Below are positions 8,191-55,050 of a stretch of DNA of 64,000 nt, piece by piece (within the stretch, counting starts at the first letter, position 1; each line of letters opens with the position of its first letter). The position numbers were made by a program, and so were the translations under genes. The notes under the pieces were generated by a model. It did not search any database, was not told the DNA's origin, and worked only from the letters and a program-made list of their open reading frames with translations. Origin of the DNA: Eunapius fragilis (lineage: Eukaryota; Porifera; Demospongiae; Spongillida; Spongillidae); contig OY811981.1 of NCBI GenBank assembly GCA_963681505.1, positions 5,425,727 to 5,489,726 on the forward strand, in the 5' to 3' direction.

Positions 8191-8191
8191 T

Positions 8192-15058: not shown

Positions 15059-15067
15059 GTATGGTTG

Positions 15068-27855: not shown

Positions 27856-30800
27856 CATGCGTGTTTTTCAGGTGCATAAGTTATGTTAATTCCTCCTTCA
27901 CACATACATGCAACTCACCAAGCCTGATTGGCTCTATGTGTCCTGCCAAGTTGCTGTACGGCCTTATCTGCACTCCAGGGTAGCTCCATAGTGAGGTGGA
28001 GACGTCTGCGCTGATTGACTACATTGAGGTCCGCATGTAAAGAGATACCTGTGAAGCAAACACAGGAGGTAAAAGAAGAAAGGAAGAAAAGATAACAATG
28101 CTTTTAACACCGGATCCGTGAAAATCGAATACGTTTTTGTCAAACCCCAACTTTGGGAAAATTAGTCGGAAAAGAGCAATTGCCAGTAGAAGTATGTATA
28201 TAGATAGTTCAATCATCACCAAGACGATTGGCGTTGTTTCCTGCCGCGTACCTACATGTATAGTGGACCCTAAGCTATACCCATTCTAAGTGACGCGGTT
28301 ATAAATTTATCGATCTCAAAACGGTGCCGAGTACACTTTTTCCAAGGACATTTCGTGCAAGTATATTATGATTCCTTTCTGAACGAATGAGGCCACAACT
28401 GGAGTTATGCTTTCAGTTGGCTTAGTTCATGTACAAAAATCCAGCAAAACTCACATGTAGCTATTTTTGCCTCGTGCCCAGACAAGAAACAAGTGACTGT
28501 AATTGATTTCAGCCTGCGGACTAGCAGGTCTGGGTATGTGACTATTGTCCCATGTAGTAGCATGCGAAGAGCTCCACATAGTTTAGATGAGAAGAATGCA
28601 TCGGATAGATGTCTTTACAAGATGTAAATGGCCTGAGCTGTATATATTGTTTACTTCCCATTTCTGTGAAAAAAATGTGACTGCGACTTGGGAGATTTTC
28701 AAAACGAAGCTACTACTGGGTAGTCCACTACTACTGGGTAGACCACTACTTGGATTCACTGCTTTATCATGCTACTGTCAAATAGCGTCCATATTGACTC
28801 GGCTCTGGACCCCAATATGGGGCCTGCGCACAACCAATATTTGGTTCTGGAGTCAAGATGTAAGGGAGATTAGTTCTTGTTTCGTCACTAGTATGATAGG
28901 ATATTGCCAGAATTTTATCAAGCCCTATTATCTATCCTAACCAGGTGAGCAAGCTTATGTTATTTATCAATGCTGAAACGTTGTGAAAAAAATGTCCCAT
29001 TTCCAGTAACGGGTCTTACCCTGTCGGCCGAAACGAACGCTGGTTCTAAACGGAAGTAGTTACAAGGCTAGAAATAGCTCCAAACATCGCATGGAGTTGT
29101 ACTCTAGCAAAATAAGTATTTGTGGTCAAAACCCTTCTGACTAATTTTCCAAAAACTTGAGTTCAACAAAATAGGCGAAAAAAGTATTGGATTTTCACGG
29201 ACCCGGTGTTAAATGGATGAATTTCCCCCCATAGAATTTCCCCCCATACATAGGTAAGGTAAACAGCCACATTAGAACGGGTTGTCCTTCATGCACTTAA
29301 TGCATTGTACATGTGTGTACATACATATATATTGGTAGGAGTGAAATTAGTGCATATCTGAAATGTATAAGGTAAGCTGCCGTACTAGAATGGGTTTTTC
29401 AACAAACTGAACTGGCCAAATGCATTGTTGTTCCTAAAACACCATGTGTCACTACTGATGGACACATTGTTTTAAAGGTTAGTTGAAACAAATTAACTAT
29501 TTAGGGGCGTAGTGAAAAAGGGTATCATCAACTGTGGCTATAGACTTGGAGGGAGGGGACAGACAACAAAAAGAAAAGAACTCCACCTGTTCCAACGTGA
29601 CATATCACTAACACCACAGCTAACAAGGAATTTATGTACAATACCACAACCAATGCCACATACAACAAAACATGAAGTTTTTTTATTTTCGTTTTTAAAA
29701 TTTGGGGATGGGGTGGGGGGTGGGGCATCCCCTTGTCTCATACGTGGCTTAAGATGCCAGCTATTGTTACTAATGCAGGAGTGTTCCTTTGTTATATTAA
29801 TATGACCTTCCCTCATGCCCTGCTATAAATATGTAGTCTAAATGCAGACCTCATTTGCACACAAAAATCATAATAAGTGTTGAAAGGTAGCGTTAATTGC
29901 TTATGACGCTCCTTACAATATTCTAACATTAGACGTGTTTGCTGGCATAATTGCCCTGTCTACAGGACCTTGCATACATTAATTGTATATTATTGTAGCT
30001 ACATGTATTACACCGACACACTCACTGTACCTGTGCTGGCAGCATCTGATATGATTGCAACTAGCTTTTTCCCACTCATAAAGGATGAACGCTATGTTGA
30101 ATGATAAACACAATAAATATTCGTGCAACAGTGAAGCCAGGTGATAGACAACACAAAAGGGGAGAGTGATGACTTGGGAGGGAGTCTAAATTACGAGGCA
30201 AGTCAAGGCAAAGTACGAAGGCAAAGTAAGGTCATGATATTCAGTTTGTATACAGATGTACAGTATGTGAGATAGACCAATAGAAATACAAAATAAACAC
30301 ACCTAAATGAACAGAGTATGTTATGTTGTGCCACACCTCAAATGTTCCCCCACCTTTGAATAGCCCAACCATCTCAGAACTATCAAACCATATACCTCTG
30401 TGTTGTTAAGACTTTCTAAAGCTTCCCCATCAGAGTCTCTGAGCTCATATTTCAGTTTTGAATCTTGCTGTCTCACAATCCTTCCTTTTCGACCAGTCAT
30501 CTCAGCAACACAATCCACTCCCCCTAACTGGTCTATCAAGTCATCCAATGGACTGATTGAAAAATTACAGCCATTGGTATTCAAAAATTCATGTACGTGT
30601 ACGACACAAACCTGTTCGGCAGATCCATCTTTGTTACAAACTCACTCAGCATGTCTTTGGCTGCAACACACCACAAGTCCTGGAGCTGCACAGGCTAAAC
30701 AGCTGGATCAAAGCAGTGCCATGTGTCAGACATGTCACAATACCTCCATCTGGGCAACTGTAGGAAAGTGCTCAGTGATGAACCTCAAAAGCATCTCTTT

Positions 30801-31323: not shown

Positions 31324-34300
31324 ACACGAACAACACATACTACCTACCATAACTGTTTGAAGAACCTCTGATGTGCACCCCAGAAAGTAGCCCACACACG
31401 AGCATTTGGAGCAGCCACCTTTGTGAGTGCAACAGCAAGGGACTTCTTGAGCTCACTCCTGCATGTTGTGTACACACAACAAACACTACACATTCACCAC
31501 CTCTGCACACATCACACCCTCACCAAACATGAGCAGCTGTGTCATACACCTGAATCTGTTCCTTCGAAAGTACCACCTTGAGGGAACTGAACTGATGGAA
31601 GATAGAACTGTGTATACATGTACTAATGCATACAGGTTACACATGTACACAGATCGTGATAAGGTGGCGGAGGACAATGATCATGGCCATGATGAGGTGG
31701 CAGAGGACAATGATCATGGTCATGATTACAAGGTCATGATGATGTGACAGACTACCCACCTCAGCCTGTCTGAAGCTTAACCCTCTCGACACATACACCC
31801 CTGCAGACTTCATCTCCATGGCAAGCATCTCAGCCGCACCCAAACCCCTCTGTGTGATTGTGTCAAGGAATGCTTGGAAGGTCTTGTACGCCATCCCTTC
31901 ACCCCAGAGTCCCAGTCGCTCCATGTACGCAAGGTTCTTGACATCACTCACACCAGTAGCGCTGCAGTAGACTACTCGTGCCTTGGGAAGTAATCTATGC
32001 AAAAAATGAAAATAAAGGTGGATGAAACAGAATGCATCACACTTCTAGCATCAGCACCCACCCCCATCAATTGGCCAGTACATGTAGGTGGTGGGCTTAG
32101 CACCAGCACCCACCCACATCAATTGTGGTGGACTTAGCACCAGCACCCACCTCCATCAATTGGCCAGTACATGTAGGTGGTGGGCTTAGCACCAGCACCC
32201 ACCCCCATCAATTGTGGTAGGCTTAGCACCAGCACCCACCTCCATCAATGGTGGGGTTAGCACCAATACCCACCCCCATCAATTGTGGTAGGCTTAGCAC
32301 CAGCACCCACCTCCATCAATGGCGGGTTAGCACCAGCACCCACCCCCATCAATTATGGTAGGCTTAGCACCAGCACCCACCTCCATCAATGGTGGGGTTA
32401 GCACCAATACCCACCCCCATCAATTGTGGTAGGCTTAGCACCAGCACCCACCTCCATCAATGGCGGGGTTAGCACCAGCACCCACCCCCATCAATTATGG
32501 TAGGCTTAGCACCAGCATCCACCTCCATCAATGGTGGGGTTAGCACCAGCACCCATCCCCATCAATTGGCCAGTAGGTGGTGGAAGTGTCGTGCACGTAC
32601 TGCAAACTTTTGTAATGGGTACTGAAGCAGAAAAGATTAACCTGCTCCTTAGAAGCATGCAGGCAATGGAGGAACAACCGAAAGTGATGTAGAAGAGGCA
32701 GGAAGAAACTTGCATGCGGTTGGCCAGGCAGTCAACAAGGACTCTTAGAAGAAAGGCAATGAATACCAATTTAAGGCCAATGCCCAATAATGAGAAAAAG
32801 ATCAAGAAAGCGGAGAAAGCAGCAGAGTGCAAGCTGGCAAAGAGGATTAAGTCAAAAGAATCAAAACAATGAAAAAAGATGGCAACACGCCTCATTTCTA
32901 GTCAACAGGATTCATGCTCGAACACTGGAGAGAGAGTTAAGTTAGCATCCATGGGAATGGCAAACATCGAACTAACTTTTGATATGGATGGGAATTGTCA
33001 TGAAATCCTAACTAATGCAATGAAAGGCTGTGGTGGATTTACATTGTTAGTCCAAATAGGTGGTCAACTAATAAATATTATTACTGTTAAATTCTTGAGA
33101 GATGTCAGGGGATATTAGTGCAATTAGTTCGAGTTTATGATATATGGATTTGTAGGCCTATCAAATCCAAGTTTATATTATTATAATGCCCCAAAGTAAC
33201 TAACTAGATGTAAGTGGCTGCTATTGTTCAAAATGAAGAAACCAAAGAATGGGCTTCTTTGCTATTTTGCTTGTAACATTTGAACTGTTTCGAATACTTG
33301 CAAGGCAATAGGATTTTCACAGCCATCATTTGTGCACAAAAAGTTCTAATTCAATTATTATTATTGAAAGTGAGCAATGAGTGGTACAATTCATTATTAC
33401 GCTATGTGAACAATATATTTGTTTTATTACATTATCACAATTGTATGTCATTCATTTTTTCCTGTCCGATTATCTTACATTTCTTATTCTTACATTTCTG
33501 TTCTTTATCGGAAACCTTGAAACAGGTATATGTTACTTTGCATAAAATACTATCACATGTGGTGAATATTCATTCATTGGAATGTCTGACCGCGCACTCA
33601 CAACCATATTCATTCACAAAGCAATGCTCCTTGTTGCCACTGCAACGGTAGGAACACTCGATGTAAGTCTCGTATGTGTGAGAGAGAAACGAACGTGCAT
33701 TAACTGCCTTCCAGGAAAGCACGGCTGCTGTTTCAATGAGCCTCGCTGCAGCAGTACCAGCAGCAGTGCAATTCATTCACAAGCAGTATCACCCCAAAGT
33801 GAAGCAGGATCGCAACGGTTTGACTCACAGCAGCAGCTGTCTTTATCGCATGTGCATCCACAGCAGCTGGAAATTTCTCCGCTTGAACCTTCTGCATCTG
33901 CTACCGAACCTTACTTTTCATCAGATCCATTCATTCAACCTCCCACTTACAAAGCCTTGCTGTCTTCAGCTTCCTATCCACCACCACTATCCCAGCTAAC
34001 ACCACTTCCTTCACAGCCTTCTTCCTCTCAGTCACCAACTTCAATCCTTTACAATACACTCCAGCAATCATCCTACCCTCAACCTTCACTGCATTCTACC
34101 ATCTTCATCACCATGTGCTAACCACCCATGATGCCACATTTCAGCAATCAACCTCTGGTCCTCTACTTAACTGCATCTTGTCCATCACTATCCCATACAC
34201 AATCTCAGATATCTCTATCACCTTTAGTTTCTATTCATCAGACCAACCCCAACTGTCAACATCTAGCCTGCTACCAGAACCACCAGGTACCAGGTCCCGT

Positions 34301-37300
34301 CAAAACTTAATCCTTCAAGCTCCCGCTCTACCCGGAAGAAATACCTCGTTCCAGGGTGCACGACACTCATAGCTCCTATCATGTGGCATTCACAAATGTC
34401 ACTTCATGCACGTGGGATGTCCCTAGCTCTTGGCTGCTTGATCAGGACCTCTCTATCTGCACTTCTCGCCACCAACTCGTGTCCAATTCTAGAACTGTTT
34501 CACATCGTTGTTGCTGTAGATTCAGAGCAAACACTCCAGATGAAGTACTCCCTCCCACTATCTTGTGGGATAACTCCACAACCAGCCACAGTCTTCCATA
34601 TCTTGAAGAGGTTTTTCAGCTTCGCTGCCACACCCTGCATTTTGTTCCAGCTAGATCAAGGCCAGCCTTTGCTAGAATGCTAGCAGGCGCCCTTAGATCA
34701 GTTGTAAGAAAAAGCATGGCTAAAACTGCCAAAGTGTGTACTTCCTTCAAAAAAGGGCAAAGGCAGTCCAGTCACTTCAAGCACACACTCATTAACTTCT
34801 TATGTGACTTGTGGTCCAAGAATAAACCTAGCACACTTTGGAACCTTGCCAAAGGACGTGCTGTTCCTGTGACACATGGTTCCCACCAATGCCATGAATA
34901 TGAAAAGAGGCAATTAGAATCAGTAGTTTCTATGGCCAGGGCTGGTCTTTTTGGGAAGGCTAGCCATACTCCTGTCTTCTGGACTAGCTCCCAATACGGA
35001 TGTCACATGGCAGCTTTTATCATCCTAACACTCCAGTTGCCCGCCCTCCTGTAGCTCCATTGACACCATCCTCTCCTACCAAAATTGGCCCAGATTTTAA
35101 TATGTTGGCTATTCCACATGAATTCCTTTCCCAAGGATACTGCAGCAGGTCCTTCATGCTTAAGGATACAACACCTGCTCGATGCTGCCACTATCCCTTT
35201 GCCCACATCCATCTACTCCACACTCCGGGATGTTGTCAACATCATGGCATCAGGTAAAGTACTCTCTCAAGTGTCCACCTTCCTGGTCGGGGGCTCTCTG
35301 ACTGCATTAAATAAGTTTAAGCCCGTTTGTCCACCGGACATTAGACCCATCACAGTTGGGGAGACGTTAAGGAGGTTGACGGGGAAATGCCTGTGTGTGG
35401 TTATCAAGAACAAGGCACCTGAGCTTAATCACCCACTTCAGTTTGGAGTAGCATGTACTGCGGGATCAGAGAAGATTGTCCATGGCTTGAGGAAGCGCAT
35501 CGAGGATCACTGGGATGATGAGGATTTCGTGGTGCTCGAGGTACATGCAGACATGAGGAATGCCTTTTAATTTGGTCTCCAGGCAAGCCATCCTGGATGA
35601 ATGTGCTTCTTTTCTTCCCTGAACTCCTACCTTGGGCAGTATGGTGCTATAGTGCACATTCAGCACTGTGGCATCCTTTGGGTCGCTTGTATCAGAATTA
35701 GTGGCTCAGCAGGAGGATCCATTAGGCCCTTTACTTTTTGCACTTGTGCTCCAAAGAATCATCTCTGTGGTTGATATGGATAATGAATGCTTGGAGCTGC
35801 TCATATCGTTACGACTGAAAAGCTCACATTTAGCAAGGTTGATGAAAATACCAAGAGGAGGACCTAATTCTTCAATCAGGTGTATTGCTCGGCATACTGC
35901 AGATTTAGTACCAGCTAGCACCCCACCATCGAGGAACCATGCATGGAAAAGCATTCAGTTACTACCAGCAGTTGGGTGAGGGACACGCTGGCCAAGGCAG
36001 GGTGGGTGTGTAATGAGGTTAAGTCTACCTGGTTCCTACCCGTAGATTGGAATAGGTTAGGGTTTACCTTGGGATCTACACGTTGGTTGTATATCAGTAC
36101 CTGATAAGAAGATTGATGCCCTGCATGGAAGGTTGCAGACAGCCATGGAGCAACCAATGCTTAGGGTGAGGGCTATAGCAAGCTGAATGCCAGTGCTGGG
36201 GGGGGGGGGCCTGGTTGTGGTGGGGACCACCTTGCTACAGCCTGCCCTGACACCAAGCCGACACCTGTGTGAGCTCCAGCAAGCCCACACACTCCTACGA
36301 AGCTCTACTTTTGAGCAAGAATTAAGGAATCATCCCCCAACAAAGCCTGGGTCTCAAGGGTACTCATTGGCATTGACAGCAGTACATAATAGACCTCGTT
36401 TTCCCCACACAGCATTAATTTAGCATCTGCACTCAAATACACCGACGTTATTGACACATAGCTGGTCATCATACACTTGTCTGCACCCGAAGGCACCAGC
36501 ATCAATGATTAGGAAGACTTTGTCATCCACTACGCAAAAGTAGAGGTACATTTAATTATTAATTCCTTTTTCTTTAGATAAAAATGTTTACCTACAAAAC
36601 ATGTGCGCGAGTACCTGTGCAAGGCGATCAAGCATTCGGTGGTGGTGGTGGTGGATGTGTTGTCAGAAACGCCGGAAAGGTCCAGAAGGTTTCTCAAACA
36701 CTCCTCAATTATCATTCAACCATGACATATCTGCCAAACTTGCCACCGTGCAAACCTGCAAACTCAAGTTAACAATACCAGTCAACGCTAAGATGGTCTG
36801 ACGTGGAGGTGGAACGATTCAAGGAGGCGGTTAGGAAGATTGGGTGGAAATATAACAAGGAATTGGCCAAATTGGTGGGAATGAGGTCCACGTCACAAGT
36901 GGCAGCGTTTAAGACGTGCTTCGCCCGCAACAACCCTTTGTGGGTAATGGAGAATGTACCAATGTACACGCCTCCCCAATCCGCTTCCACCAGGAGTTCT
37001 GGACCCACTACACCTTCGTCTGTCTCCAGCTCCATCGGAAAGCGTCGGGAGGACGTGGTAACACCCGAACTACCATTCCAACCACCACCCCTCCTACTCC
37101 CCGCTGGGCCTATGGACCCTACACCATCCCCCTCTGGATGGGACCTAATCATGAGGCAAGGAGACCCAGTGAATACATCACATAAGGTAACAAAGCTGGT
37201 AGGTCAGGGTCAACTGGATATACCCAATCCAGCCACGATTGCAGCAGGTGTCCAGCAAATGCCCACACCAGGCCCGGATAGTTTACCCACACCAGGCCCA

Positions 37301-40300
37301 TCAAGTGCAAATCAGCAAGGTAGTTTACCCTATGGTTGGGGCCAAGCATTTGACATGGTATCATTGGGAATTTGTTGCCGTTACAGTCCCATTAGCTGTT
37401 TTTCAAAGACCTACAATGTTGTTATAAGTGATACTCCAAAATTAACGTAATGGCTGTATATTCGATATTATACATGTACATACTATTAAACCATCCAAAG
37501 TTTTTATATGTACATCACAGCAGTGAACATAAAATTCCTGGCACCTCTTGATTGTCATTTTCGTAGCTGATGTATGAGTTTCTCTTTGCAGGATGGTCAG
37601 AGCACAACCACAAAGAAGAAAAAAAAAGTGTGCTACATCCTCTGAAAGTCTACTGTGTTCTGTGTTGTTTTTTTCTTTTTTTGGTCACAAATGTTGCTTG
37701 TGCAATATTATGTAGATAGTGTTTACTACATGCGCAAACACAGCAGTGTTAGTACACAAAAGTAAACATGACGTAAAGGTCACGTTAAAATAATCTGAAT
37801 TGTTAGCCCCTTCCTGTCGGTTCCTGCGATTTTTTTGTACTTTGTACGTATCAAAGAGAAATCACCTCTTGCAACGTATGTGCATTGTAGTGGACACTCC
37901 CTCAATCTTGTAATTAGTCATTCTTGTGCTTTACCGGAGGTACGAAATATGCTTGATAATCTGAAGGTTTGTGCTTTATTTTTTGATAATAGCCCGAAGC
38001 GAAGTAATCTTCTACAATTCATTGTCGACGATAGACTGAAGGATCATCCTACTAAGCGCAAAGCTCTTTTGCAGCTGTGCAAGACCCGTTGGGCTGAACG
38101 TCACAAGGCATTCCAGCACTTTTATCAAGCATACACTTTCATTCCATCAAGTGCAAATCAGCAAGGTAGTTTACCCACACCAGGCCCATCATGTGCATAT
38201 CACCTGGGAAAAACAGAACCATCAAGTGCTCAATATCCGAGTACACCAGATGGAGGTCCATCATATTTTCAGGCTCAAAGACCGCCTTCATAAATGGATA
38301 CAAGGCAGCCATCAAGTTCTCAAAGCATCTCATTTCTCCAATCCCCTCATCAGGAACTAAGAGAGTGTTTGGGTACAAACGATGGTGTTCAAATGTAGCC
38401 ATGACAGATGAGAAGGGTGCAGTTACTGTCAGCAGCTGGGTGAGGGACACGCAGGGTGGGTGTGTAATGAAGTTAAGTCTACCTGGTTACCTACCAGTAG
38501 TTAGGGTTTACCTTGGGATCTAGAGGTTGGTTGTATATCAGTACTTGATAAGAAGATTGATGCCCTGCATGGAAGGTTGCAGACAGCCATGGAGCAACCA
38601 ATGCTTAGGGTGAGGGCTATAGCAAGCTGAATGCCGGTGGTTGTGGTGGGGACCACCTTGCTACAGCCTGCCCTGACATAAAGCCGACACCTGTGTGAGC
38701 TCCAGCGAGCCTACACACTCCTACGAAGCTCTACTTTTGAGCAAGAATAAGGAATCATCCCAACAAAGCCTGGGTCTCAAGGGTGCTCATTGGCATTGAC
38801 AGCAGTACATAAGGGACCTTGTTTTCCCCACACAGCATGTAATTTAACATCTGCACTCAAATACACCGACGTTATTAACACGGAGCTGGACATCTTGCAC
38901 TTGTCTGCACCCCTTCGAAGGCACCAGCATCAATGATTTCATTGATAAGGAAGACTTCGCCATCCACTACGCCATCCACTACGCAAAAGTAGAGGTACAT
39001 TTAATTATTAATTCCTTTTTCATTAGATAAAAATGTTTACCTACAAAACATGTACGCAAGTATCTGTGCAAGGCAATTGAGCGTTCGGTGGTGGTGGTGG
39101 TGGATGTGTTGTCAGAGATGCCAGAATTTTAAAGGTCCAGAAGGTTTCTCAAACACACTTTTTAGATCGGTCAAACTCTGATCTGTTCACATGAAGGTGT
39201 ACGTCGTCGAACTGGTTTTGAGGACACGTTAAAGTACCCCACAAACGAGACTGCCGTATTTAAACGGCCCCAATGTTGAATGTCGGAATCATGAGCAAAT
39301 ATAATGGCTGGTATGTTCCTGCATTAATGCTACGTATGTATATAAGTCCCGACGCTCACTTATTTACACAGCGAAGTGGTATGCTGACGATGATGTGGAT
39401 TCATTGATACCCGAACTTGTGCCGGAGAACTCTGAACGGACCGATCTCGAGGACGTCGTAAGTGTGTTCTTCTCATAATGTAATGACAATGTTTACTCAA
39501 AACGTGGGGAGGGGAGGGGGAGGGAGGATAGTGTGTAAATTATACGTTGAACGTGCAAATTATGTCTTTCTCACTTGACCATGATAGCATAGCAATATAT
39601 ATTTGACTAACCATAATTGTCATTTTTAATCCTCCAGCTCCAACCATCAACATCAATATTCAGGTGGTTAATTTTTGTTGCTAACACAAAGTTCTCCAAA
39701 TCTACATTTATCTGCCTATTGAGCATTTATACACACATCCGAATCCCCTAATGCAGACCTCCAATTGATGCTGATTATGGCTTTGAGGTGAATTTGACTT
39801 CATATGGTCGAAATACATCACCAAAGTCCAACAGTCACACAGTAAATGACATTAACTTTAAAAACAGGATGTACATGATATTGTATTTTCTCCAGTACTC
39901 AAAGGATCTGAACAAACTGTATGTAAAGCAGTGTGATGACTTACCAATACAATTCAAATTCAAAGGTATGTATCGACACATGTCCTTGCATCGGGATTAA
40001 TCACTTCATTGCACAGGGATCACAGATGGTCAAGTCTCAATTAGGGCCACATGTTACTTCCTTGAGAACCAAACCATTCCTGTCCTCTGCTCTCAACGTC
40101 ATCGTGACACTTCAAGACCAGAATGCATGGGATCAAATATTTTTATTACAGTGCCACACCGCAGGGATGCATATATAACAGTAGACCAATCTGGTCACCT
40201 GTCTCTAACAGTTCCAGGTAAGGTTCCCCCCCCCCCATGTCACTACATGGAGACCACACCTCTTTCTGTTCACATGCAGTCCATTCCTACCATGGAGATA

Positions 40301-43300
40301 CAACTGTCATCACGTACAGCTATCCCTGTTATACATCTGATATAACAAAAGATGGTGTGATTGAAACTCTTTTTAGTTTAGAGAGAGATAGGTATGCCTT
40401 AAGATGAAAGGTATGAAAGTAATAGAGTTTCTGTTTTGTAGCAAAGTACTTGCACAGTGTGCGACCCAAATTAGGGTTTGTTACTCTCCTGGAAGAGATA
40501 GATGCACTGAAGAGACAAAAGTAAAAGGTCCAATTGTTGGAAAAAAGAGGAGTCAGTTGTTATATAGTTAATTAGCTGCAATAGATGTATATCATCAATA
40601 ATCGTTTCTACAGAGACCTCAGATGATAGTGAGGCATCCAGCAAATGCCCACACCAGGCCCGGATAGTTTACCCACACCAGGCCCATCATGTGCATATCA
40701 CCTGGGAAAAACAGAACCATCAAGTGCTCAATATCCGAGTACACCAGATGGAGGTCCATCATATTTTCAGGCTCAAAGACCGCCTTCATAAATTGATACA
40801 AGGCAGCCATCAAGTTCTCAAAGCATCTCATTTCTCCAATCCCCTCATCAGGAAATAAGAGAGTGTTTGGGTACAAACGACGGTGTTCAAATGTAGCCAT
40901 GACAGATGAGAAGGGTGCAGTTACTGTCAGCAGCTGGGTGAGGGACACGCTGGCCAGGCAGGGTGGGTGTGTAATGAAGCTAAGTCTGGTTAGGGTTTAC
41001 CTTGGGATCTACACGTTGGTTGTATATCAGTACCTGATAAGAAGATTGATGCCCTGCATGGAAGGTTGCAGACAGCCATGGAGCAACCAATGCTTAGGGT
41101 GAGGGCTTAGCAAGCTGAATGCCAGTGCTGGGAGACCCTGGTTGTGGTGGGGACCACCTTGCTACAGCCTGCCCTGACGCCAAGCCGACACCTGTGTGAG
41201 CTCCAGCGAGCCTACACACTCCCACGAAGCTCTACTTTTGAGCAAGAATTAAGGAATCATCCCAATAAAGCCTGGGTCTCAAGGGTACTCATTGGCATTG
41301 ACAGCAGTACATAATGGACCTTGTTTTCCCCACACAGCATGTAATTTAGCATCTGCACTCAAATACACCGACGTTATTAACACGGAGCTGGACATCTTGC
41401 ACTTGTCTGCACCCAAAGGCACCAGCATCAATGATTTCATTGATAAGGAGACTTCGCCATCCACTACGCAAAAGTAGAGGTACATTTAATTATTAATTCC
41501 TTTTTTCATTAGATAAAAATGTTTACCTACAAAACATGTACGCAAGTACCTGTGCAAGGCAATTGAGCGTTCGGTGGTGGTGGTGGTGGATGTGTTGTCA
41601 GAGATGCCAGAATTTTAAAGGTCTCGAAGGTTTCTCAAACACTCCTCAATTATCATTCAACCATGACATATCTGCCAAACTTGCCACCACGTCAACCTGC
41701 AAACTCAAGTTAACGATACCAGTCAACGCTAAGAAGCCGTGCCTTTCTCAAATAAATTAAGTTATCGAGGAAAGGGCCAAGCATATAAAAGGGTGCCAAA
41801 AGAGGAGGGGCATTATTGATTTGCAATCCTGGGGCCGCCTGTTTTACCATTAGCGTACATTGTAGATTACGCTTATTAATTGGTTCACACTTGTTTGTAA
41901 AACACAGTTTTCACACATATGGTTCATAGGAGTGCAACATATACATAAGTCCTGCTCCAAAAGGTGGTCTCAAACTCCTTAGTTCCCTCCCACCCACCCC
42001 CACCCCCTTAAACCACATTAGGGGTGGCTCCACCCCCTCGAACCACGCCCAAAATGGAGTCAGTTCTAAGCAGGAAGACACCCCCTCCGAACTCCGGACA
42101 AGAATCCAGACGCAAATCCCACTTCAGAGATTCGACCAAGTAGCCACCAAACTGGTTAAGACAACACATCATTTCATCCTCCTCACGCAAATGCTACAAT
42201 CGAAGGTCCTATCCAGAGTATTCACTATCGATATGCACGGTAGGGGGATTTAAAAGGCTCGTACCTGCAAAGGGAGGCAGTCCTCCAGGCAAAGCCGAAA
42301 GATAAAGAACTATCTCTCACCGCCAGAAGCTGATCTGGATCACCGACCGACCAGAGTACGTGTGGGTCGTAGTATGAAGACGACCTCGCTACTAACTTTG
42401 ATGATGAGAAAAGGCTAGAGAAGGTAGAGCGGAAAGGTGGCGGCAAAAAGGAAGCGGCGGGATAAGGACTTATTTCTTAGTTGCTATTTTCTAAGATTGG
42501 GCATGAGGACAGGGGAAGGGTTCCTATGCATATTCGCCGTTGACAGCATGACGTCATTTGAAGCTATTGAGTCGTATCTCTCACTTATAACGGCTCTGGT
42601 GACATCAGTGCCATCCCCGAGGCCTGCGTTAAGTGGCGACGCAGCCACTTCAAGGCCACGTGGGCACATCTTCTGGTATCAGTGCGGCAAGCCTGGTCAT
42701 GTGAAACGCACGTGCACCAAGAAGCCTTCGTCAGCCCCCACTGTGTATCCTCCCACCTTAGTGTGTGCCTGTTGTGACGAGGGTTCTGTAGGTGAAGGGG
42801 AACACGATGAAGTAGTTAATAGGAGGTGCTGGGAGTTCCAGGGCGTACGACCAGTTGGAGGTCACTGAGGAGACATTGGGTGATAGTCATGAACCTAGTA
42901 AGTGGCTTCAATCTGGAGCAAGTTATCGTTATCTTTAAAGGCTATGCCTATAATACAGCTTGAAATGAGTACCAGTACTGCTAAAAGCATTGCAGTACAG
43001 ACTGGCAAAGCTCTGACTTACATGCATAGCAGGAACCCTAGAGTTATTCATCATGACATCAAACCATCTGACATCATGGTAAGAGGTTATGTTAAAACTT
43101 AAAGTCCATGCATTCACTGTCACTGGAGAAAAAGAAAATGAAAACAGCACCTCTTTCGGGACTGCCCAATAAATCTATTTTCTCCAAGGTCAAAAGGTTT
43201 TCCATTGATCTTTTTGTCATAGATGGCTTTCTGTGTTCTTTGTTTCTTTGTTCACCTTTGCAGTGCTCTCTCACTAAGGCATATGCATCATGGAGAGTTG

Positions 43301-46300
43301 ACTTGAGTTCACCCATGGAAAGGCCCCTGAAGTGGTGGAGCGATTTGGGGAGTCTGTGTATAAATTAAGGGTCAGAAGGACTATCAATGTGTGCACTTTG
43401 ACAAGTTGAAACCGTACCAAGGAGAAAATGAAAGCACCCAGTCTGATGAAGCCCCACTCACACAACGGTTTGCGAAACAGCAACAAAATGCTCGAGACCA
43501 GCCTCCACACATCCCTTCAGCAATGGAGTTGCTGGATGATGACAAAGAAGAGCAAGAGGGTAATGCGAACAAAGATCAGCCTGAAGATGCGCCCGCTGTG
43601 GATCCTCCAGCTGTGCCCGCTGCCGACCCACCTGCTCGCCGGTAGCCTGGTAGAGAACAACACTGAGTCACAGACTGCTACAGACCGCACATTGAGTTTT
43701 GAAAGGAGGGAGTGGTGTAATGTAATAGTGACATCATGAACTGCACATACAAGAAATGCATCAAGTCTGACCCTTGCCCCCTAGCTCATGTGACTGAACA
43801 GATATACACGTAAGTACCTATATTTTTTGTATTTTGGCATTCTTGTACACGTGTTTCTGATGTTGCCATGATTCTTGTGCTCGTGTCACACTTGTAATTG
43901 CTAATGCCAGCCAATTAATGCAACAAAAAAAAACTGTGTTACAGTTTTGTAACAAAGCTGGTAAGTTTGTGCAAAACATGCTGGGTGGAAAGATTTGAAG
44001 CATTTGACAACTACATAGATTTATTAGAAGCAGTAGCAACAACTTGTGATCTTATTGTTTATCCATATCTGTGATGTACATGATGCAGATTTTAATGAAT
44101 TGGATCAGGAGAGCTGGGATTGGGATGCTGATACTAAAACCAGAACACAAGGTATTTTAGCCGTTATACGAAATTTTGAATAAATTAAGTGACATTAAAG
44201 TATGTCCTGGAGTCATTACATGAAATTATAGCCAAGCTTAAGGAACGAGATTTAGATATATATGAAGCATTCTGCAATATACATTCTGCCAGTGACAATG
44301 TGACATCAAGTCCTCTGAATATGAATATGAGATACCCAATCTGGTATCAGGCAGTTGTAGGTCATGGCTGGTCCACAACTGTGCGCAAAGGGATGCCGAC
44401 TGTGTTTAGTCAAGCTTAGCTATTATTTAAGCTTAGCTATTATTCATAATACACATCCAGAGATATCCAGAGATACATGCACATCCAGAGATACCCAGAG
44501 ATATATGCCTGGTGGATACTAATGGCGGCAATGGCTGCATACTCGGTGACAACCAATAGTGAGTCTGCTGGTGCTGGTAATTATCTTGTGACGTGCTCAA
44601 GCACGTTTGCTATGGAAAAAATTAATACACACACGTTAGCAGATTGCATTAGTCGTATTGTGGACTATGATGACTAGCAGTTGGTGCCTGAGATATTCTA
44701 TTGGTGGGGACCTGGTTTGGAAGTGATTACAATGGTAGTACTAACAAGAAGTACCTGGGAGCCTAAAGGAGATGGAAGACCTGGACAGGGAGTAGGCAAG
44801 GTGTACCTAGTTACCCTGTACAGGATGTTCACCAGGCACTCTACCTGCACAACTTAAGTGAGTCAGTAGAGCCTAAGGCAGCAGCAGAGGAAGCAGTGCA
44901 TGCATGCTTGTTGCCATTTGCAGGATTCCTGCGTTGCAGTGAGTTAATAACACTTTGGTGCCAGCACCTCAAAGAAATACCTTGGTACCTATCAGCAATG
45001 GAAGATTTGCACAGACTCTAAGGGGTGCCGAGCTTCGCCGTAAAGGAAGCTCACATGGTGCTGTACTTGCAGCACCTCAACGAGTCCACAGGGTCTAAGA
45101 CGCTTGTTAGGGAGGAAGGTGAGGACGACGTACATGTAGAGGATGGCATTTCTGCACCAAAAAAGCGGTCAGTGATGGTTAAAACGGTAGAAAAGTGGAT
45201 GGCAAAGAATGACAAGGATTCGGATACGTCGCTTTGGCTGAAGTACGTGAAAGATGGATGAGACACGGTTGGGCTATTGAAATGCGCAGCTTGCATAGAG
45301 TTTGAAGCAAGGCTGGTTAGAATGCGCAACTTTCATAGTACCTAATCTGCGCAATATGAATTTTAAAGATCACGCAAAAAGTGAGATGCACGCATGTGCA
45401 ATGATGCTTTTATAAAAAGAACCGAGTAATGCCAGCAACTGTCCACCGATTATACAGCTGATCCAAAATCTTGATGCAGAAACTGAAATGAACACTAGTG
45501 TTGTGAACGTCAGTGCACCAAGAAAAACATATTTTCAAGCTTATCAGATCTTACGAAGAACTGCCCTAGCACATAGGGATGGTACCACTTGCATAGTACA
45601 TATGAACACATAGGGATGGTACTACTAGCATAGCCCATATGAACACATAGTACATATAAGCAAAATCTTCATCGAATCATGTCTGAACAATTAAACCATA
45701 TGTCTGGTCAATTTTGTTCATGTTCTGACATTTTGTCAGAACACTTATTGCTCCTTATCGGAAACCCTGGAAGGTGTTGTGGTGTTCACTAATCTGTTTC
45801 GACTGGAGTGTTGAAATGTGTGACAAACGTATTCAACTTGGGTGGGATTTGAACCACTGACCATTTCGACTGACCGTTTCGACTGGGTGTTGAAATGTGA
45901 TGATTCGTGTCAATGTATGCAACCCAGGTGCCCTAACCTTCCCCTGACCTAGTAGGTACGATCATACTGGTGTTGCCCACTCACCATACCCACTACCTCT
46001 CAAGCGATAGGGTCGTTCTGTATGCCATTTGTTCATGTACTCCATATGGGGTTACAATTTGGCAGAACCTTTCGGGCTTCTACCCTGACCAACCACTTTA
46101 ACCCCATGACTGCATCAAGGTGTGGCACATCTGGTCGCACCCGAGGCATGATTCAGCATCACCCCTGGTCGCAGGTCGGTCAGTGGTGAGGACCTGGGCC
46201 AGCGCTACCTTGGTCCTCCCAGCCTTGTCCTGATGGCCACACCCCATCATCAGGTTGCCACCTAACCCTTTTTTGTTAACTAGTATAGACACATGACGGG

Positions 46301-52300: not shown

Positions 52301-55050
52301 ATTGCCAAAATAGTATTAGCAGCATTAGTCACATGGCCAGTGCGTGTTTTAAAGGGCAACCACATGTTTATAGTATCACAGGTGTCCCTAAATAGCTCCA
52401 GCAAGACTGGACTGTAGCAGTTCTATTATGACATCAAACGATATGTGCTAAGTAAATTAAGAACATGCCAAACCAGAATGAGCCATGTGCCAAACTCATC
52501 TACGTCGAAATGGATACATCAGAACACAATAATAAATAATGCAACACACGACCCACTTTGTTTCCTTATCAAGTTGTTGGCAGCCATCAATCACCCTGAT
52601 GTAGCAACCAAGGTCCTTTAGGTCTCTGTCAATTCCAAATACAGCACACCATTACTAATAAAGGGTCTGTTCACACCCACCCACATACCTCTCTGCGTCC
52701 ATCTTTAGGTCATGTGACACACTGAACCAGATGTGTTTGCATCTTCCCCGAGCGTAGTTATCCAAAATTATTGCAGCAATCTGTGTGCAGTACCCAAAAG
52801 TATTGCAGCAATCTGTGCATGCTCACATGTGCACACATGTACTCATATGCCAGGGTACTGGTATTCACATTACCACACAACACAGGATAATGGTAGTTAC
52901 TAACTTTTGTGCAATGTAATTTTAAAATGTACTCCTTGTTTACTTATTTTTTGATTCAGTACATTCATTGATATGCAGAGCTCCAACATGTGTATGCAGT
53001 GTGTCTTAAAACAGACACATCTCAAATGGGGAGCACGTCACACCAGATCAGAAAATGATGACACGTTAAATGTTTGCAATCAAAGGCACAGAAATTAACC
53101 ATGCACACATACAGACCACACACACAGATACACACATATATACACAAGTACACAGATATACACACACAGATACACATACAGATATACAAAGTACACATAT
53201 ATACAAACTTATACACATATATACACAAGTACACAGATATACACACACAGATATACACACAGATATACACACGCACCTGCCGTCCCTTTCCAACTCCAGC
53301 ACCATCTCCAATGAAGAATCCCGCTCTGCTACCATCAGGCAGGAGGGTTAAGTGACGTTGACACTAATTGCGACATTAGAGTAACATTCTTTTAGCATGT
53401 TAAAATCTGCAATGTATGTTACCGCATGAAGGACACCTTCCAATTGAAGACTGCTCAGTTTTCCTACAAGTCCAAACATGGCAGTTGTGATTCACAATGA
53501 CTCATACAATATAAACATTCAACATACATGCACACACACACACACACACATACACACACACACATAATACATGGGAATTACTGGATTATACCATTGCGTT
53601 GGGTATCGCACAGTGATGCCATGTTATATGCCTGACACAGTTACACCATTCTCCTTGACTCAGTTTTCTCGTCTTTCTGGAGGGTCCCGATCTGTGTTTA
53701 TTAGCTTTAATCATCAAAAAGCCCAACTCAACTTATACAGTTCTTCGTGTCCAAGTCTAACTTTAAGCATAAGTAGTAGTTTAATAAGCGCTTGGTAAGC
53801 AGAGGGGAAATGAGTTACTTGTGGAACCATCCCATGCTAAGCACGTTGTAGGCCTATTCTGAAGCTTATTAATAAAAGATAAATGCTTGGCTTGTATGGT
53901 ACAGTTCAGGCGTAAACTGTGAGTTTTTCTAACAGAAATGATTTGTAGCATTAATCTTCATTGGCTATGAGTGAGTGAGCACTGTGTGTCGTGGAATGGT
54001 AGGATGTCCGGGAAAAAAGTTTCTACCAGTACCAATCTTCTCATTGCTAGTTTCATCACCAAACGTTTTCTCAAGGCCAACATTAGCGTGATGGCAAAAA
54101 ATTTAAATTCACTTGGAATGTACTTCTGTTAAGAAAAACTATTTTCCCCTCACTCTTGAAAAATTTCTTAAACCCGAGTGTTCCCCTAAGCAAGGGATCT
54201 TCAAGTATTCCGCCATAAATGCTTTATAATGTGATTGTGTCAAGCATTGAACCAATTTTTTTCTGGGGCATTTTGCATCACATAATAGCAGCACTTGCAT
54301 GTAACCACGTACACTATTATTACCTGTCAACAACAACCCTTCAGGAAGAGACTGCCAAAGGTCGTAGTGAGCAGGTGGCAGAGGCACATCCTGCAGTAAT
54401 TGAAGGTGAGAAGTGTTAAAATACAAATATGTTGCAAGGAAAAACAGTGACTTACAGCCAGAGAAGCAGCTTCCACAACATCTGCAGGATGGGGTAGGGC
54501 TTTTGAAAACACAGGGTTGGTGTTCAAGTACTGCATGAACACCTGCTTACTGAAAGTTCCCACGATATCTGACTAGCACATATCAGTACACACCCACCGA
54601 CACACCCACACCCACATACCACACCCACATGCACACCCACACACACACCTCACCACTCACACACACACACACACTCACACACCACTCACCCACACACACA
54701 CACACACCTTGTGGCTTGATGCACCTCCTCCTTGGCCATCTTACTTATCTCCTCCTGCTCCGGTGTAGGCGGTGCGGTCGCCTGGACTCGTTGAAGTAAG
54801 ACCTTTCCCGACGACGTAACCGTCAGGTCGGAGCGCGGGTGAGATGCGCTTCCCGCTCCTCCCATGGCCTTGGCCAGCTGCTGAGCTTTAAGCATGCGGT
54901 TAAGGGCCTGTATCTGGCGGGTTCGAGTGTCTGCTGGGAGGGTAATGAAGAGGGTAGAACTGGTTCTACCTCACATCGAGTGGGCTTACCGTTAACAGCG
55001 GAAACATTCTGACTCGAGCTCGGGACTTGACTCGAAGGCAGGTCAGACAT
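23405..55050 (-). CDS. SBNO: Strawberry notch homologue (SBNO), helicase-like transcriptional regulator
   Basis: Twenty-nine coding exons were traced by splice sites and phase (exon 1 first): 54990-55050, 54706-54933, 54456-54568, 54324-54390, 53423-53463, 53277-53363, 52689-52780, 52557-52625, 49642-49781, 46473-46635, 31760-31994, 31524-31591, 31348-31458, 30931-31024, 30744-30863, 30612-30685, 30396-30552, 30031-30091, 27919-28048, 27664-27749, 26904-27019, 26810-26842, 26574-26687, 24979-25142, 24727-24903, 24551-24633, 24410-24493, 24087-24334, 23405-24016. They sum to 3,828 bp, giving 1,275 residues and a stop. The order follows animal SBNO1/2: Walker [15 protein letters not shown] box, SAT motif, motif [10 protein letters not shown], and the SBNO C-terminal domain. 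SBNO proteins are nuclear superfamily 2 helicase-like co-regulators acting downstream of Notch and other signals. The oddities are a 14.5-kb intron 10 and a UBZ4-bearing last exon. Least certain borders: the exon 2 donor (inside a GT run) and exon 22 (33 bp). Confidence 0.92.
24087..25142 (-). CDS. SBNO: SBNO exons 24-28 (C-terminal SBNO domain)
   Basis: Exon 24 (24979-25142) reads [12 protein letters not shown]. Exon 25 (24727-24903) has [12 protein letters not shown], exon 26 (24551-24633) RPNTGQSF, exon 27 (24410-24493) a Cys-rich [13 protein letters not shown], and exon 28 (24087-24334) [15 protein letters not shown] and [11 protein letters not shown]. Each block has a counterpart, in order, in animal SBNO1. 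All intron phases match, and introns are short (57-91 bp) apart from those of 145 and 75 bp around exon 25 and its neighbours. Confidence 0.88.
25302..25848. mobile_element. Foldback element in SBNO intron 23
   Basis: Arms of about 210 bp, starting GGTAATCGTATACTGCAGTA at the left and ending TACTGTAGTAATG... in reverse at the right, are inverted copies with roughly 10-15% difference. The centre (about 25520-25618) contains CCTGGGAATGAGGCTA, which looks like the end of a Mutator-like MITE inserted in the loop. A C25 tract lies just outside the right end (25869-25893). Confidence 0.75.
26574..27019 (-). CDS. SBNO: SBNO exons 21-23
   Basis: Exon 21 (26904-27019) has [13 protein letters not shown] and [13 protein letters not shown]. 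Exon 22 (26810-26842) is a 33-bp exon, [11 protein letters not shown]. Exon 23 (26574-26687) has [14 protein letters not shown]. These match the SBNO blocks GALTHGDRRA, the GVG segment and FLNRILGMEVHQQN. Exon 22 is the least certain: its donor could be five bases upstream with an extra micro-exon, but the version given keeps phase without one. Confidence 0.85.
27664..28048 (-). CDS. SBNO: SBNO exons 19-20 (helicase motif VI)
   Basis: Exon 19 (27919-28048) encodes [17 protein letters not shown] and [11 protein letters not shown], the motif VI arginine-finger region. Exon 20 (27664-27749) encodes [20 protein letters not shown]. The intron between holds a long GT dinucleotide repeat. Confidence 0.92.
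27795..27856. repeat. (GT)n microsatellite in SBNO intron 19
   Basis: About 27 GT units, with slightly impure edges. Open frames reading Cys-Val or Thr-His repeats here are artefacts. Confidence 0.95.
28108..29208. mobile_element. TTAA-flanked TIR element (piggyBac/Kolobok-like), 1.1 kb
   Basis: Inverted ends CACCGGATCCGTGAAAATC and GATTTTCACGGACCCGGTG are flanked by TTAA on both sides (28104-28107 and 29209-29212). Similarity between the ends extends about 75 bp inward (GGAAAATTAGTC). TTAA duplication is typical of piggyBac and Kolobok elements. No transposase was recognised; the 117-codon frame at 28587-28940 shows no domain. It lies in SBNO intron 18. Confidence 0.8.
28468..28545. mobile_element. 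Diverged Mutator-like MITE remnant
   Basis: CCTCGTGCCCAGAC at the left and GGTCTGGGTATGTGACTA at the right resemble the ends of the elements at 15068 and 19003 with several changes. It is nested inside the TTAA element. No target duplication could be verified. Confidence 0.45.
30031..31024 (-). CDS. SBNO: SBNO exons 14-18
   Basis: Exon 14 (30931-31024) has [11 protein letters not shown], and exon 15 (30744-30863) has [17 protein letters not shown] and EHFP. Exon 16 (30612-30685) is a short linker, [10 protein letters not shown]. Exon 17 (30396-30552) has [20 protein letters not shown], and exon 18 (30031-30091) has [16 protein letters not shown]. The order and motifs match SBNO1, but the long charged linker of vertebrate SBNO1 between FVS..HFP and DELIDELGG is nearly absent here. 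Confidence 0.92.
31258..31327. repeat. (CA)n microsatellite in SBNO intron 13
   Basis: A CA repeat with one CACCACA interruption near 31283. Confidence 0.95.
31348..31994 (-). CDS. SBNO: SBNO exons 11-13
   Basis: Exon 11 (31760-31994) carries [20 protein letters not shown] and GLWGEG, including the SAT motif and the most diagnostic SBNO block. Exon 12 (31524-31591) has [18 protein letters not shown]. Exon 13 (31348-31458) has [12 protein letters not shown]. All three join in phase with consensus sites. Confidence 0.95.
32046..32583. repeat. ~35-bp minisatellite with 70-bp higher order
   Basis: Alternating units CACCAGCACCCACCTCCATC and CACCAGCACCCACCCCCATC, linked by AATGGTGGGGTTAG or AATTGTGGTAGGCTTAG, give a dimeric repeat. 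It lies in SBNO intron 10, about 50 bp upstream (transcript sense) of exon 11. Confidence 0.9.
32879..33118 (+). CDS. Unrecognised ORF, probably transposon-derived
   Basis: A 79-residue frame contains [20 protein letters not shown]. It is preceded (32620-32875) by a charged Lys/Arg-rich frame with stops that looks like the N-terminal coiled region of the same protein. I recognise no family. It lies antisense in SBNO intron 10 among other repeat debris. Confidence 0.25.
   Translation: MATRLISSQQDSCSNTGERVKLASMGMANIELTFDMDGNCHEILTNAMKGCGGFTLLVQIGGQLINIITVKFLRDVRGY
33582..35805 (+). pseudogene. Reverse transcriptase element (RVT_1 type), broken
   Basis: The upstream part has [19 protein letters not shown] (33678-33734) and a Ser/Pro/Gln-rich stretch. 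A middle part reads [20 protein letters not shown] and [20 protein letters not shown]. The reverse transcriptase proper includes [36 protein letters not shown] and [17 protein letters not shown] blocks (35085-35570), then [18 protein letters not shown] (35707-35760). Frame changes near 34120, 35060 and 35570 break it. I associate this RT with an abundant cnidarian/sponge retroelement of uncertain class. The catalytic segment is inverted (35806-35954). Confidence 0.65.
35806..35954 (-). pseudogene. Inverted fragment carrying the RT catalytic motif
   Basis: The plus-strand RT reads to NECLELL and stops making sense. The next segment of the same protein is found on the minus strand: [13 protein letters not shown], then [20 protein letters not shown]. 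The expected catalytic Tyr-x-Asp-Asp is FLDGG here. The junction GAGCTGCTCAT reads sensibly in both orientations, suggesting an inversion at microhomology. Confidence 0.6.
35955..36790. repeat. Segmental repeat copy A
   Basis: Shares long blocks with 38160-39160 (copy B) and 40632-41740 (copy C). The blocks include CAGTTGGGTGAGGGACACG, GATGCCCTGCATGGAAGG, ACACCTGTGTGAGCTCCAGC, AAATACACCGACGTTATT, ACCTACAAAACATG and the GGTGGTGGTGGTGGATG stretch. In copies B and C one frame reads [19 protein letters not shown], which I take as the C-terminal part of the same RT element. Confidence 0.75.
36803..37450 (+). CDS. SANT/Myb-like domain ORF with Pro-rich tail
   Basis: The N-terminal part reads [20 protein letters not shown] then [14 protein letters not shown], matching the SANT/Myb pattern: an aromatic-led helix, a turn, then a recognition helix with TSQV. 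Trp-Ser-Asp just upstream (36788-36796) supplies the expected first Trp. A Ser/Pro-rich linker follows, then a [13 protein letters not shown] repeat that recurs near 38160 and 40650. It may be a transposon accessory DNA-binding protein. The sense start is uncertain. Confidence 0.45.
   Translation: MEVERFKEAVRKIGWKYNKELAKLVGMRSTSQVAAFKTCFARNNPLWVMENVPMYTPPQSASTRSSGPTTPSSVSSSIGKRREDVVTPELPFQPPPLLLPAGPMDPTPSPSGWDLIMRQGDPVNTSHKVTKLVGQGQLDIPNPATIAAGVQQMPTPGPDSLPTPGPSSANQQGSLPYGWGQAFDMVSLGICCRYSPISCFSKTYNVVISDTPKLT
37835..38130 (+). pseudogene. hAT-type (52 kDa repressor/ZMYM-like) transposase fragment
   Basis: Contains [34 protein letters not shown] and [15 protein letters not shown], blocks typical of hAT-derived proteins of the DUF4371/zinc-finger MYM group (CxxHxLNL and TRW motifs). 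The hATC domain is missing: the sequence runs straight into segmental repeat B at about 38145. A 5' truncation is also likely. Confidence 0.75.
38160..39160. repeat. Segmental repeat copy B
   Basis: Direct repeat of copy C (40632-41740), largely colinear over about 1 kb from CCCACACCAGGCCCATCATG to GGTTTCTCAAACAC. The two copies bracket the p53-family gene. All frames through the first 300 bp are unusually open on both strands (e.g. 38139-38450 minus), so I could not decide whether any of it is coding. Confidence 0.75.
39304..40571 (+). CDS. p53/p63/p73-family DNA-binding-domain protein
   Basis: Eight exons with consistent GT-AG introns of 50-180 bp: 39304-39310, 39372-39457, 39638-39663, 39757-39841, 39896-39965, 40017-40217, 40280-40391, 40442-40571. 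They total 717 bp, giving 238 residues. The N-terminus is short and acidic ([14 protein letters not shown]), like a minimal transactivation segment. The DNA-binding domain follows p53 order: [38 protein letters not shown] (first zinc Cys and His, one residue wider); [28 protein letters not shown] (third zinc Cys); LFSLERD; and [15 protein letters not shown], nearly identical to the p53 IRVC.CPGRDR block. The fourth zinc Cys and the p53 R248 region are not conserved. No tetramerisation domain is encoded before the stop. The gene lies antisense in SBNO intron 10, between direct repeats B and C. Confidence 0.85.
40632..41740. repeat. Segmental repeat copy C
   Basis: Starts CCAGCAAATGCCCACACCAG, as at 37253, and is colinear with copy B from CCCACACCAGGCCCATCATG. 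It continues beyond B's end with CTCCTCAATTATCATTCAACC, as in copy A. If the p53 gene used a donor at 40521 and an acceptor at about 40613, translation would run into this repeat for about 80 codons. Confidence 0.75.
41741..42436. other. No supported gene
   Basis: Contains short minus-strand frames (42008-42190, 42225-42446) without recognisable domains. It may be the 5' part of the decayed gypsy fragment that follows. Confidence 0.4.
42437..42868 (+). pseudogene. Second gypsy remnant: gag zinc knuckle
   Basis: Begins with a Lys/Arg-rich stretch. Near 42673-42717 it has [14 protein letters not shown], a CCHC zinc knuckle whose first Cys is replaced by Trp. Another gypsy-like segment (43380-43720) lies downstream. 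RT and integrase are missing between them. Confidence 0.55.
42959..43078 (+). pseudogene. Orphan protein kinase exon
   Basis: A 120-bp segment bounded by ATACAG and GTAAGAG encodes [21 protein letters not shown] and SDIM, the kinase helix plus catalytic loop. The conserved HRD is HHD here and the expected N after KPS is D. No neighbouring exon of a kinase is visible, so it is a captured or duplicated gene fragment lying between two gypsy remnants, antisense in SBNO intron 10. Confidence 0.6.
43380..43720 (+). pseudogene. Second gypsy remnant: integrase tail
   Basis: [15 protein letters not shown] (43390-43434) matches the integrase C-terminal block seen at 19140. It is followed by an acidic Pro/Ala-rich tail to a stop at 43643. 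A purine-rich GAAAGGAGGGAGTGG lies just before TGTAATGTAATAG near 43715, which may be a polypurine tract and LTR start. Confidence 0.5.
43740..46472. other. SBNO intron 10 distal part: transposon debris
   Basis: 44189-44419 encodes [20 protein letters not shown], weakly like hAT-derived proteins. Near 44893-44955 the sequence reads [18 protein letters not shown], reminiscent of the catalytic region of Crypton/DIRS tyrosine recombinases. 45046-45100 ([17 protein letters not shown]) fits the N-terminal helical domain of the same family but comes in the wrong order. 45580-45660 holds a short tandem repeat (ACATAGGGATGGTAC). None is intact. Confidence 0.35.
46473..46635 (-). CDS. SBNO: SBNO exon 10 (DECH box)
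   Basis: Starts after CACCTCAG and ends before GTAAGC. It encodes [20 protein letters not shown] followed by [13 protein letters not shown], helicase motif II (DECH) with the SBNO-specific KAK. It is separated from exon 11 by about 14.5 kb, yet the junction codon is intact and no SBNO sequence is missing between them. Confidence 0.93.
46871..49325. repeat. Complex inverted-repeat region in SBNO intron 9
   Basis: AAATTTCCAATTCTCCTTATAG (46874-46895) is inverted at 48631-48652, and CGCGACACCATCGAGGAAGT (48665-48684) is inverted at 49296-49315. Five copies of a near-palindromic 16-mer, ATCCTTATTTAAGGAT or its reverse, occur at 47331, 47497, 47520, 48514 and 48534, two pairs being head-to-head. 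Open frames at 48156-48474 are open on both strands and have no domain. Confidence 0.6.
49642..49781 (-). CDS. SBNO: SBNO exon 9
   Basis: Encodes [20 protein letters not shown], the SBNO block equivalent to GVIFATYSSLI, followed by a charged insert. The donor is GTAAGT at 49636-49641; an earlier GTATGG would break the phase with exon 10. Confidence 0.9.
49968..52226. repeat. 2.2-kb VNTR, 17-bp unit
   Basis: Roughly 130 copies of CACTGTGCAGACTCCTA, with variants TGTGTAG, AGTGTAG and TTCTA. A separate marker, TGCACTGATACACACATACAG, recurs near 50035, 50668, 50888 and 52206, giving a higher-order structure. A truncated TACACTCC unit recurs many times. Because 17 is not a multiple of three, open frames last only where indels compensate. 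The array lies in SBNO intron 8. Confidence 0.97.
52557..53463 (-). CDS. SBNO: SBNO exons 5-8 (Walker A)
   Basis: Exon 5 (53423-53463, 41 bp) reads [13 protein letters not shown]. Exon 6 (53277-53363) reads [15 protein letters not shown] then [14 protein letters not shown], the SBNO Walker A. Exon 7 (52689-52780) reads [13 protein letters not shown] and [15 protein letters not shown], and exon 8 (52557-52625) reads [14 protein letters not shown]. All phases agree with the SBNO order. Confidence 0.93.
53110..53272. repeat. ACACAGATATAC-type microsatellite
   Basis: Degenerate AC/AT repeats abutting exon 6's donor in SBNO intron 6. The 80-90-codon open frames on both strands are artefacts of the repeat. 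Confidence 0.9.
54324..55050 (-). CDS. SBNO: SBNO exons 1-4 (N-terminus)
   Basis: Exon 1 (54990-55050) starts [14 protein letters not shown]. Exon 2 (54706-54933) is Gln/Lys-rich ([20 protein letters not shown]), ending inside a GT repeat so that its donor is ambiguous. Exon 3 (54456-54568) has [14 protein letters not shown] and exon 4 (54324-54390) has [13 protein letters not shown], matching the SBNO blocks HPD.VVE.SSL and W. The N-terminal part before the helicase is much shorter than in vertebrate SBNO1. The ATG at 55050 is the first in frame after an upstream stop. Confidence 0.85.

Follow-up and report, generated by a model that had tools for sequence, protein, structure and literature searches.

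The question raised by this locus is whether an animal gene of the p53 family can be naturally compact, ending soon after its DNA-binding domain and carrying an altered zinc site. The locus lies in a 64,000-nucleotide stretch of the demosponge Eunapius fragilis (assembly GCA_963681505.1, contig OY811981.1, positions 5,425,727 to 5,489,726 of the forward strand), which is referred to here as the window and in whose own coordinates positions are given unless a contig is named. An earlier note made from the window had described eight short exons of a p53 relative nested antisense within an intron of an SBNO gene and had taken them for a gene of this compact kind. The observation is sound, its natural history was misread, and the feature is best explained, with a probability of roughly 0.85, as a DNA copy of a p53-family gene that was recently placed here without its 3' end and is likely a dead fragment. 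The surprising part is what stands behind the fragment, an amplified and altered p53 family located beside a conventional p53-type gene.

The eight exons join in phase into a product of 238 residues at 39304-40571 on the forward strand, and all seven introns are GT-AG. According to the exon model and the comparison with related copies on contig C3, exon 1 with the start codon spans 39304..39310 and exon 2 spans 39372..39457, while exon 3 (39638..39663), exon 4 (39757..39841), where the p53 DNA-binding domain begins, and exon 5 (39896..39965) are additionally supported by paralogs; exon 6 (40017..40217) carries the first zinc pair, and exon 7 (40280..40391) retains the third zinc cysteine and has aspartate at the fourth position. 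The assignment to the p53 family holds, since the joined protein matches Pfam P53 (PF00870) over residues 45-222 with an expectation value (E) of 1.4e-24. In a search of solved structures its top match is 7pc6 at E 3.2e-16, a chain of the Alvinella p53-family DNA-binding domain according to PMC8901663, and human p53 chains match from 2.4e-11 upwards among the best 60 of 102 matches. These matches are far beyond chance, and a spurious resemblance or misread exons are ruled out by the Pfam and PDB matches together with the identical structure in six C3 loci.

The antisense nesting within the SBNO intron is likewise borne out, as SBNO exons flank the fragment on both sides on the minus strand, with PF13872 at 53025-53363 and 31640-32044 and PF13871 at 30324-30641; the host intron, delimited by joining the flanking exon pair, runs from 46472 to 31995 on the minus strand and measures 14.5 kb. 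Much of its sequence appears, on a reading of its frames, to be transposon debris. On the forward strand it holds a hAT-transposase-like frame (37799-38290, by reading, no Pfam match being better than E 0.048) and, at 36773-37447, a Myb/SANT-like one (E 0.0011, below the cut-off).

A search of the genome with 39170-40600 returned 32 matches, including four near-full copies on C3 at 96-98% identity and two more on C3 in which an intron insertion separates the main pieces, themselves 99% identical. All six lie at 7.25-8.19 Mb; the three longest DNA matches on C2 are at 67-72%. The sequence shared between the window and C3 is confined to 39232..40638 on the forward strand, a fragment of 1,407 bp with 96-99% identity to the C3 copies and with both edges sharp (alignment matches of 80 bp or more being listed). 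The C3 loci share far-reaching blocks with each other, the longest per pair extending over 4,737-7,558 bp at 94-98% in the 15 pairs (matches above 150 bp). All introns of the model are present in the window and in the six C3 copies, so the fragment represents a DNA-level copy, and a processed retrogene or retrocopy is ruled out. Its right edge falls within a coding exon, as the first 25 bases of exon 9 are present (40614..40638, from the C3 comparison) and the parental gene is broken there; in the C3 copies this exon runs on and is followed by one more. When the exon-8 donor is used, each of the six C3 copies displays a ten-exon frame of 283 residues with one terminal stop, the last intron having the donor GTTTGT and the acceptor TAG. 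The missing C-terminus of the window copy is thus the result of the break at 40638, and the window copy is classed as a p53-family gene fragment rather than a working member since parental exons 9 and 10 are cut off.

The copy is also recent, as only 3 of 693 exon positions and 7 of 713 non-exon positions differ from its closest C3 relative, L029 (exon 8 counted to 40547). The changes private to the window copy comprise seven substitutions and ten missing bases, which affect a zinc cysteine, the TATA-like element and an intron (the ten-base loss). Bases 39770, 40092 and 40499 are among those private to the copy. The TATA-like element at 39257..39264 on the forward strand reads TATATAAA in all six C3 copies and TATTTAAA in the window, through a substitution at 39260, and the parental sequence 5' of the start codon amounts to 72 bp in the window copy.

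To the left, the fragment adjoins a 74-bp filler (39157..39230, forward strand) which recurs at four places on C9 with 97-99% identity, at one on C6 with 95% and at one on C12 with 85%. Filler and fragment together are bordered by two copies of a local repeat, here termed R, on the forward strand, the left at 38167..39156 and the right at 40639..41760, which are 92% identical over 1,014 aligned columns; other long copies of R (89-92%) are no more than a few kb away on C11, the contig of the window, and shorter, mostly weaker pieces occur on many contigs, among the 40 of 68 candidates scored. The preferred course of events would be that a piece of about 1.4 kb, reaching from the core promoter into the first part of exon 9 and including its introns, was copied from a ten-exon parent now present six times within 1 Mb on C3 into the repeat-rich SBNO intron on C11, next to the 74-bp sequence also found on C9 and between two copies of R, probably through break repair by template switching or patch insertion with a C9-type patch. 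Transport of the fragment as transposon cargo instead of by repair, which would be compatible with a dead fragment all the same, is unlikely. The joining of two pieces of different origin, the 74-bp C9-type piece and the 1,407-bp C3-type piece, and the mobile-element-like frames read in the intron would suit it, whereas long copies of the flanking repeat R with high identity are local to C11, and the search of 36500-43500 for inverted repeats gave none reaching 40 bp.

The zinc site distinguishes what is old in the family from what is private to the window copy. The C3 protein was aligned to human and Alvinella chains, using human p53 residue numbers (C176, H179, C238, C242, R248, R273 and R280). 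Residues C117, H120 and C175 correspond to human C176, H179 and C238, and D179 stands in place of C242, so that the C3 parents keep three of the four zinc ligands. The replacement of the fourth zinc cysteine, reported earlier for the window copy, is real, being an aspartate common to the C2, C3, C5 and C7 paralogs wherever the exon was read, and its presence in the C2, C5 and C7 paralogs marks it as an old trait of the derived family. The retention of the third ligand cysteine (C175) and of the R273 equivalent (R207) was also correctly seen; R207 and R214 align with R273 and R280, and both contacts are kept in the window copy as in C3. The R248 loop was said to be replaced, and loop L3 is two residues shorter than the human one, with K182 as the likely equivalent; the R248 position is probably lysine in this shortened loop.

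The description of a first zinc pair with one extra residue does not stand, because the neighbouring cysteine had been aligned; the true ligand cysteine lies one position further on, in CCQRH, which is found in all six C3 copies and reads CSQRH in the window. Codon 117 in exon 6 has changed from TGT to TCT at base 40092, and this serine occurs in the window copy alone, with cysteine in six of six C3 copies. Because it is private to the window copy, the loss of the first zinc cysteine is a lesion rather than a design, and the window copy is left with two of the four ligands (H120 and C175). In unicellular holozoan p53 homologs, C176 and C238 are the only two of the four ligands that are invariant, and positions 248 and 273 hold arginine or lysine, as reported in PMC6981761; the cysteine kept there at 176 is thus the one that the window copy has lost.

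The end of exon 8 decides how the shared 3' part of the gene is to be read. Exon 8 most likely ends at 40551 (40442..40551, forward strand), with its donor at 40552, and not at 40571, where the first model had stopped. The last codons of that model (SQLLYS and the stop, 40552..40571) are intron read-through, since the stop at 40571 lies beyond a donor whose place is conserved in paralogs, reading GGA/GTGAGT in L037 (C5) and L039 (C7), GGA/GTTAGT in C2 and GGA/GTCAGT in C3 and the window. The downstream exons are conserved in C2, C3, C5 and C7. The C2 gene (72% identity in DNA and 70% in protein) can be modelled on the same ten exons, giving 279 residues, and would stop almost at once if exon 8 were read through; the transferred model gave stops in the C2 copies L032 and L033 and did not fit L034. 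The ratio of nonsynonymous to synonymous change (dN/dS) between C3 (L029) and C2 (L031) comes to 0.23 for the 277 codons compared, with values of 0.20 in a 180-codon slice of the DNA-binding domain and 0.26 in the last 62 codons. Given the ten-exon frames of C3 and C2 and this low dN/dS, exons 9 and 10 look like genuine coding sequence of the family that is missing from the window copy.

Several observations weigh against a dead, truncated copy of a ten-exon gene. The window and C3 donor at 40552 (GTCAGT) is weak, the second C5 locus (L038) has no GT at the exon-8 donor place, and the read-through stop is common to all six C3 copies, for which reasons an intron-retained form of 238 residues could exist. 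The C2 gene reads AC instead of AG before exon 7. The dN/dS values among the C3 copies are uneven, from 0 to 1.75 in 15 pairs, because few changes separate the copies, and those between the window and C3 range from 0.29 to 0.87. The frame of the window copy is still open with its seven splice junctions intact, and the private changes are so few that decay is unreadable from its sequence.

These points leave a slim chance of expression of the window copy as a p53 protein with a DNA-binding domain only, either as the 238-residue product of intron retention or as a chimera of 313 residues, which would then compete with the C3 proteins or act as their partner. The core promoter was included in the copied piece, and exon 8 normally spliced to the truncated exon 9 gives an open frame of 313 residues with a repeat-derived tail and a stop at 40856-40858. 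Fates of this kind are possible in view of the elephant TP53 retrogenes, one of which yields a C-terminally truncated protein active in cells (PMC9935553). On the other side, one zinc ligand is lost through the private cysteine-to-serine change, the TATA element has been altered, and the copied piece begins only 72 bp before the start codon. The reading as a truncated copy is preferred, under which the window copy would be non-functional. A self-standing compact gene with its natural end at 40571, as first proposed, is very improbable, for although the read-through stop in six of six C3 copies would allow a 238-residue isoform family-wide, all six C3 parents run on to 283 residues, C2, C7 and one C5 locus keep the exon-8 donor place (as GTTAGT or GTGAGT), the downstream exons are conserved with low C3-C2 dN/dS in the tail, and the read-through C2 gene would end almost immediately.

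The tail that the window copy has lost bears on the claim that neither a tetramerisation nor a SAM domain is present. As to the tetramerisation domain it is right for the window copy, whose tail exons 9 and 10 are cut off at 40638; a natural compactness is not supported. In the parental family, the DNA-binding domain is followed by a strand-like SLTIN and an amphipathic helix split by a phase-0 intron, and in an alignment of five tails the SLTI strand and the LHN pattern of the helix are shared, as is the intron between the two. Human TP53 has an intron at a similar place in its tetramerisation domain. In place and pattern the tail resembles the p53 tetramerisation domain (PF07710), but that domain was not matched in three products scanned with Pfam up to E 10, and the four PDB sequences that a profile of the five tails matched up to E 10 did not include p53. 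A search of the genome for PF07710 gave a single match of E 1.55 on C19, and one of 14 control genomes also matched. The tail is regarded as a candidate oligomeriser. No SAM domain was found in the modelled 283-residue product, in which the Pfam scan gave P53 only (PF00870, E 7.4e-27), exons past the modelled stop not being sought. The parental C3 protein consists of a short acidic N-terminus, the p53 DNA-binding domain and the strand-plus-helix tail. Fold, conserved contacts and constraint together suggest that the C3 and C2 genes probably encode p53-type transcription factors.

The derived family comprises at least 15 loci by protein search, namely six on C3, four on C2, two on C5 and one each on C11, C7 and C20. 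Judged by E, the C7 locus (0.0017 and 0.011) and the second C5 locus (0.0036 in one protein search and absent from another) are weak, and both show several exons in order; one comparison across loci drew on loci other than L026, L027, L029 and L030 and on matches of E below 5. At C2 15.493 Mb there is a remnant of exon 8, RVCSSPGRDR, with E 5e-6 when that single locus was compared, and C9 and C1 hold yet weaker fragments. The six C3 genes (L025-L030) are nearly identical, lie within 1 Mb (C3:7.24-8.19 Mb) in long segmental duplicates of 94-98% identity and all have the 283-residue frame open; many overlapping upstream matches suggest tandem repeats there, and a beta-trefoil-like open frame (by reading) lies downstream of the p53 gene in L026 at 8188-8616 on the forward strand. 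The loci at C5:10.46 and 10.54 Mb and C7:7.83 Mb (L037-L039) are more distant paralogs, with the C-x-x-H pair and the aspartate in L037 and L039 and the strand-plus-helix tail in all three. At C9:7.736 and 9.255 Mb (L035, L036), pieces of the promoter and introns of the C3 p53 gene occur at 84-89%, and no DNA-binding exon stood out there.

A conventional p53-type gene was observed on the minus strand of C13 at 2117609-2119879 (L047, L048), in which three exons were read in order (..VTRCPKH.., ..SYHCMTSC.. and ..RVCSCPVRDRR..), and the three pieces joined match PF00870 at E 2.2e-15. It shares the domain with the C3 family and the window copy and, unlike them, keeps both zinc pairs (CPKH and C-x-x-x-C). 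The CPKH exon also has four copies at 91-93% on C9 (5.655-5.806 Mb) and two weaker C9 pieces, nine matches in all. An exon-by-exon search of the genome with PF00870 gave no match at E 1e-3; up to E 10 it gave 12, nine at copies of the derived family, one at C2 15.493 Mb and two on C13. Replacement of canonical p53 by the derived lineage was considered and dropped on finding the C13 gene. It is a bold and improbable further proposal that a second, amplifying p53 lineage beside the C13 gene, with aspartate as fourth ligand, a short L3 and a new oligomerising tail, might employ relocated truncated copies such as that of the window as tuning antagonists, either DNA-binding-only or chimeric.

Beyond this genome, protein look-ups for relatives scored 63 candidates, none at E 1e-3, and an alignment search found one protein among 2,953 candidates, P0082, which adds no distinct relative because its identity to the copy at C2 15.506 Mb is 98%. 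No p53 expansion in sponges was the subject of any title or abstract opening among those listed from open-licence papers, and according to PMC5793068 p53 evolution in the sponge genome had not been specifically studied.

Two further features of the window lie apart from the p53 fragment. On the forward strand, 12915-15266 contains Ty3-type retroelement-like frames (reverse transcriptase, RNase H and integrase-like) on a reading of the frame list alone, and 56782-58167 reads as a multi-pass membrane-type protein with 81 matches at E 1e-3 or better among 8,000 candidates scored, of which six rows are named: two Ephydatia muelleri, three Em codes read as Ephydatia and one hypothetical protein.

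In comparison with known p53 systems, the window copy and the C3 family share the p53/p63/p73 DNA-binding domain and the R273 and R280 contacts; the C3 parents differ from those proteins by the aspartate for C242, the shorter L3 and the lysine near R248, and the window copy by the loss of the C176 equivalent in addition. The elephant TP53 retrogenes are alike in that one genome holds many p53 copies, some truncated and without the oligomerisation domain (PMC9935553), and they differ in that the C3 copies keep their introns, as DNA-level duplicates, with six of them open over ten exons. The apparent novelties of the window copy, the absent C-terminal domain and the odd zinc pair, come from a break and one mutation, and the copy is a caution that eight exons in a clean frame and a strong domain match may nevertheless belong to a broken copy. 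A genome in which six nearly identical, open p53-type genes lie within 1 Mb, with older diverged relatives and a conventional gene alongside, would be a DNA-level counterpart to the elephant TP53 amplification, and the parental family allows a direct test of a p53 fold with aspartate in its zinc site.

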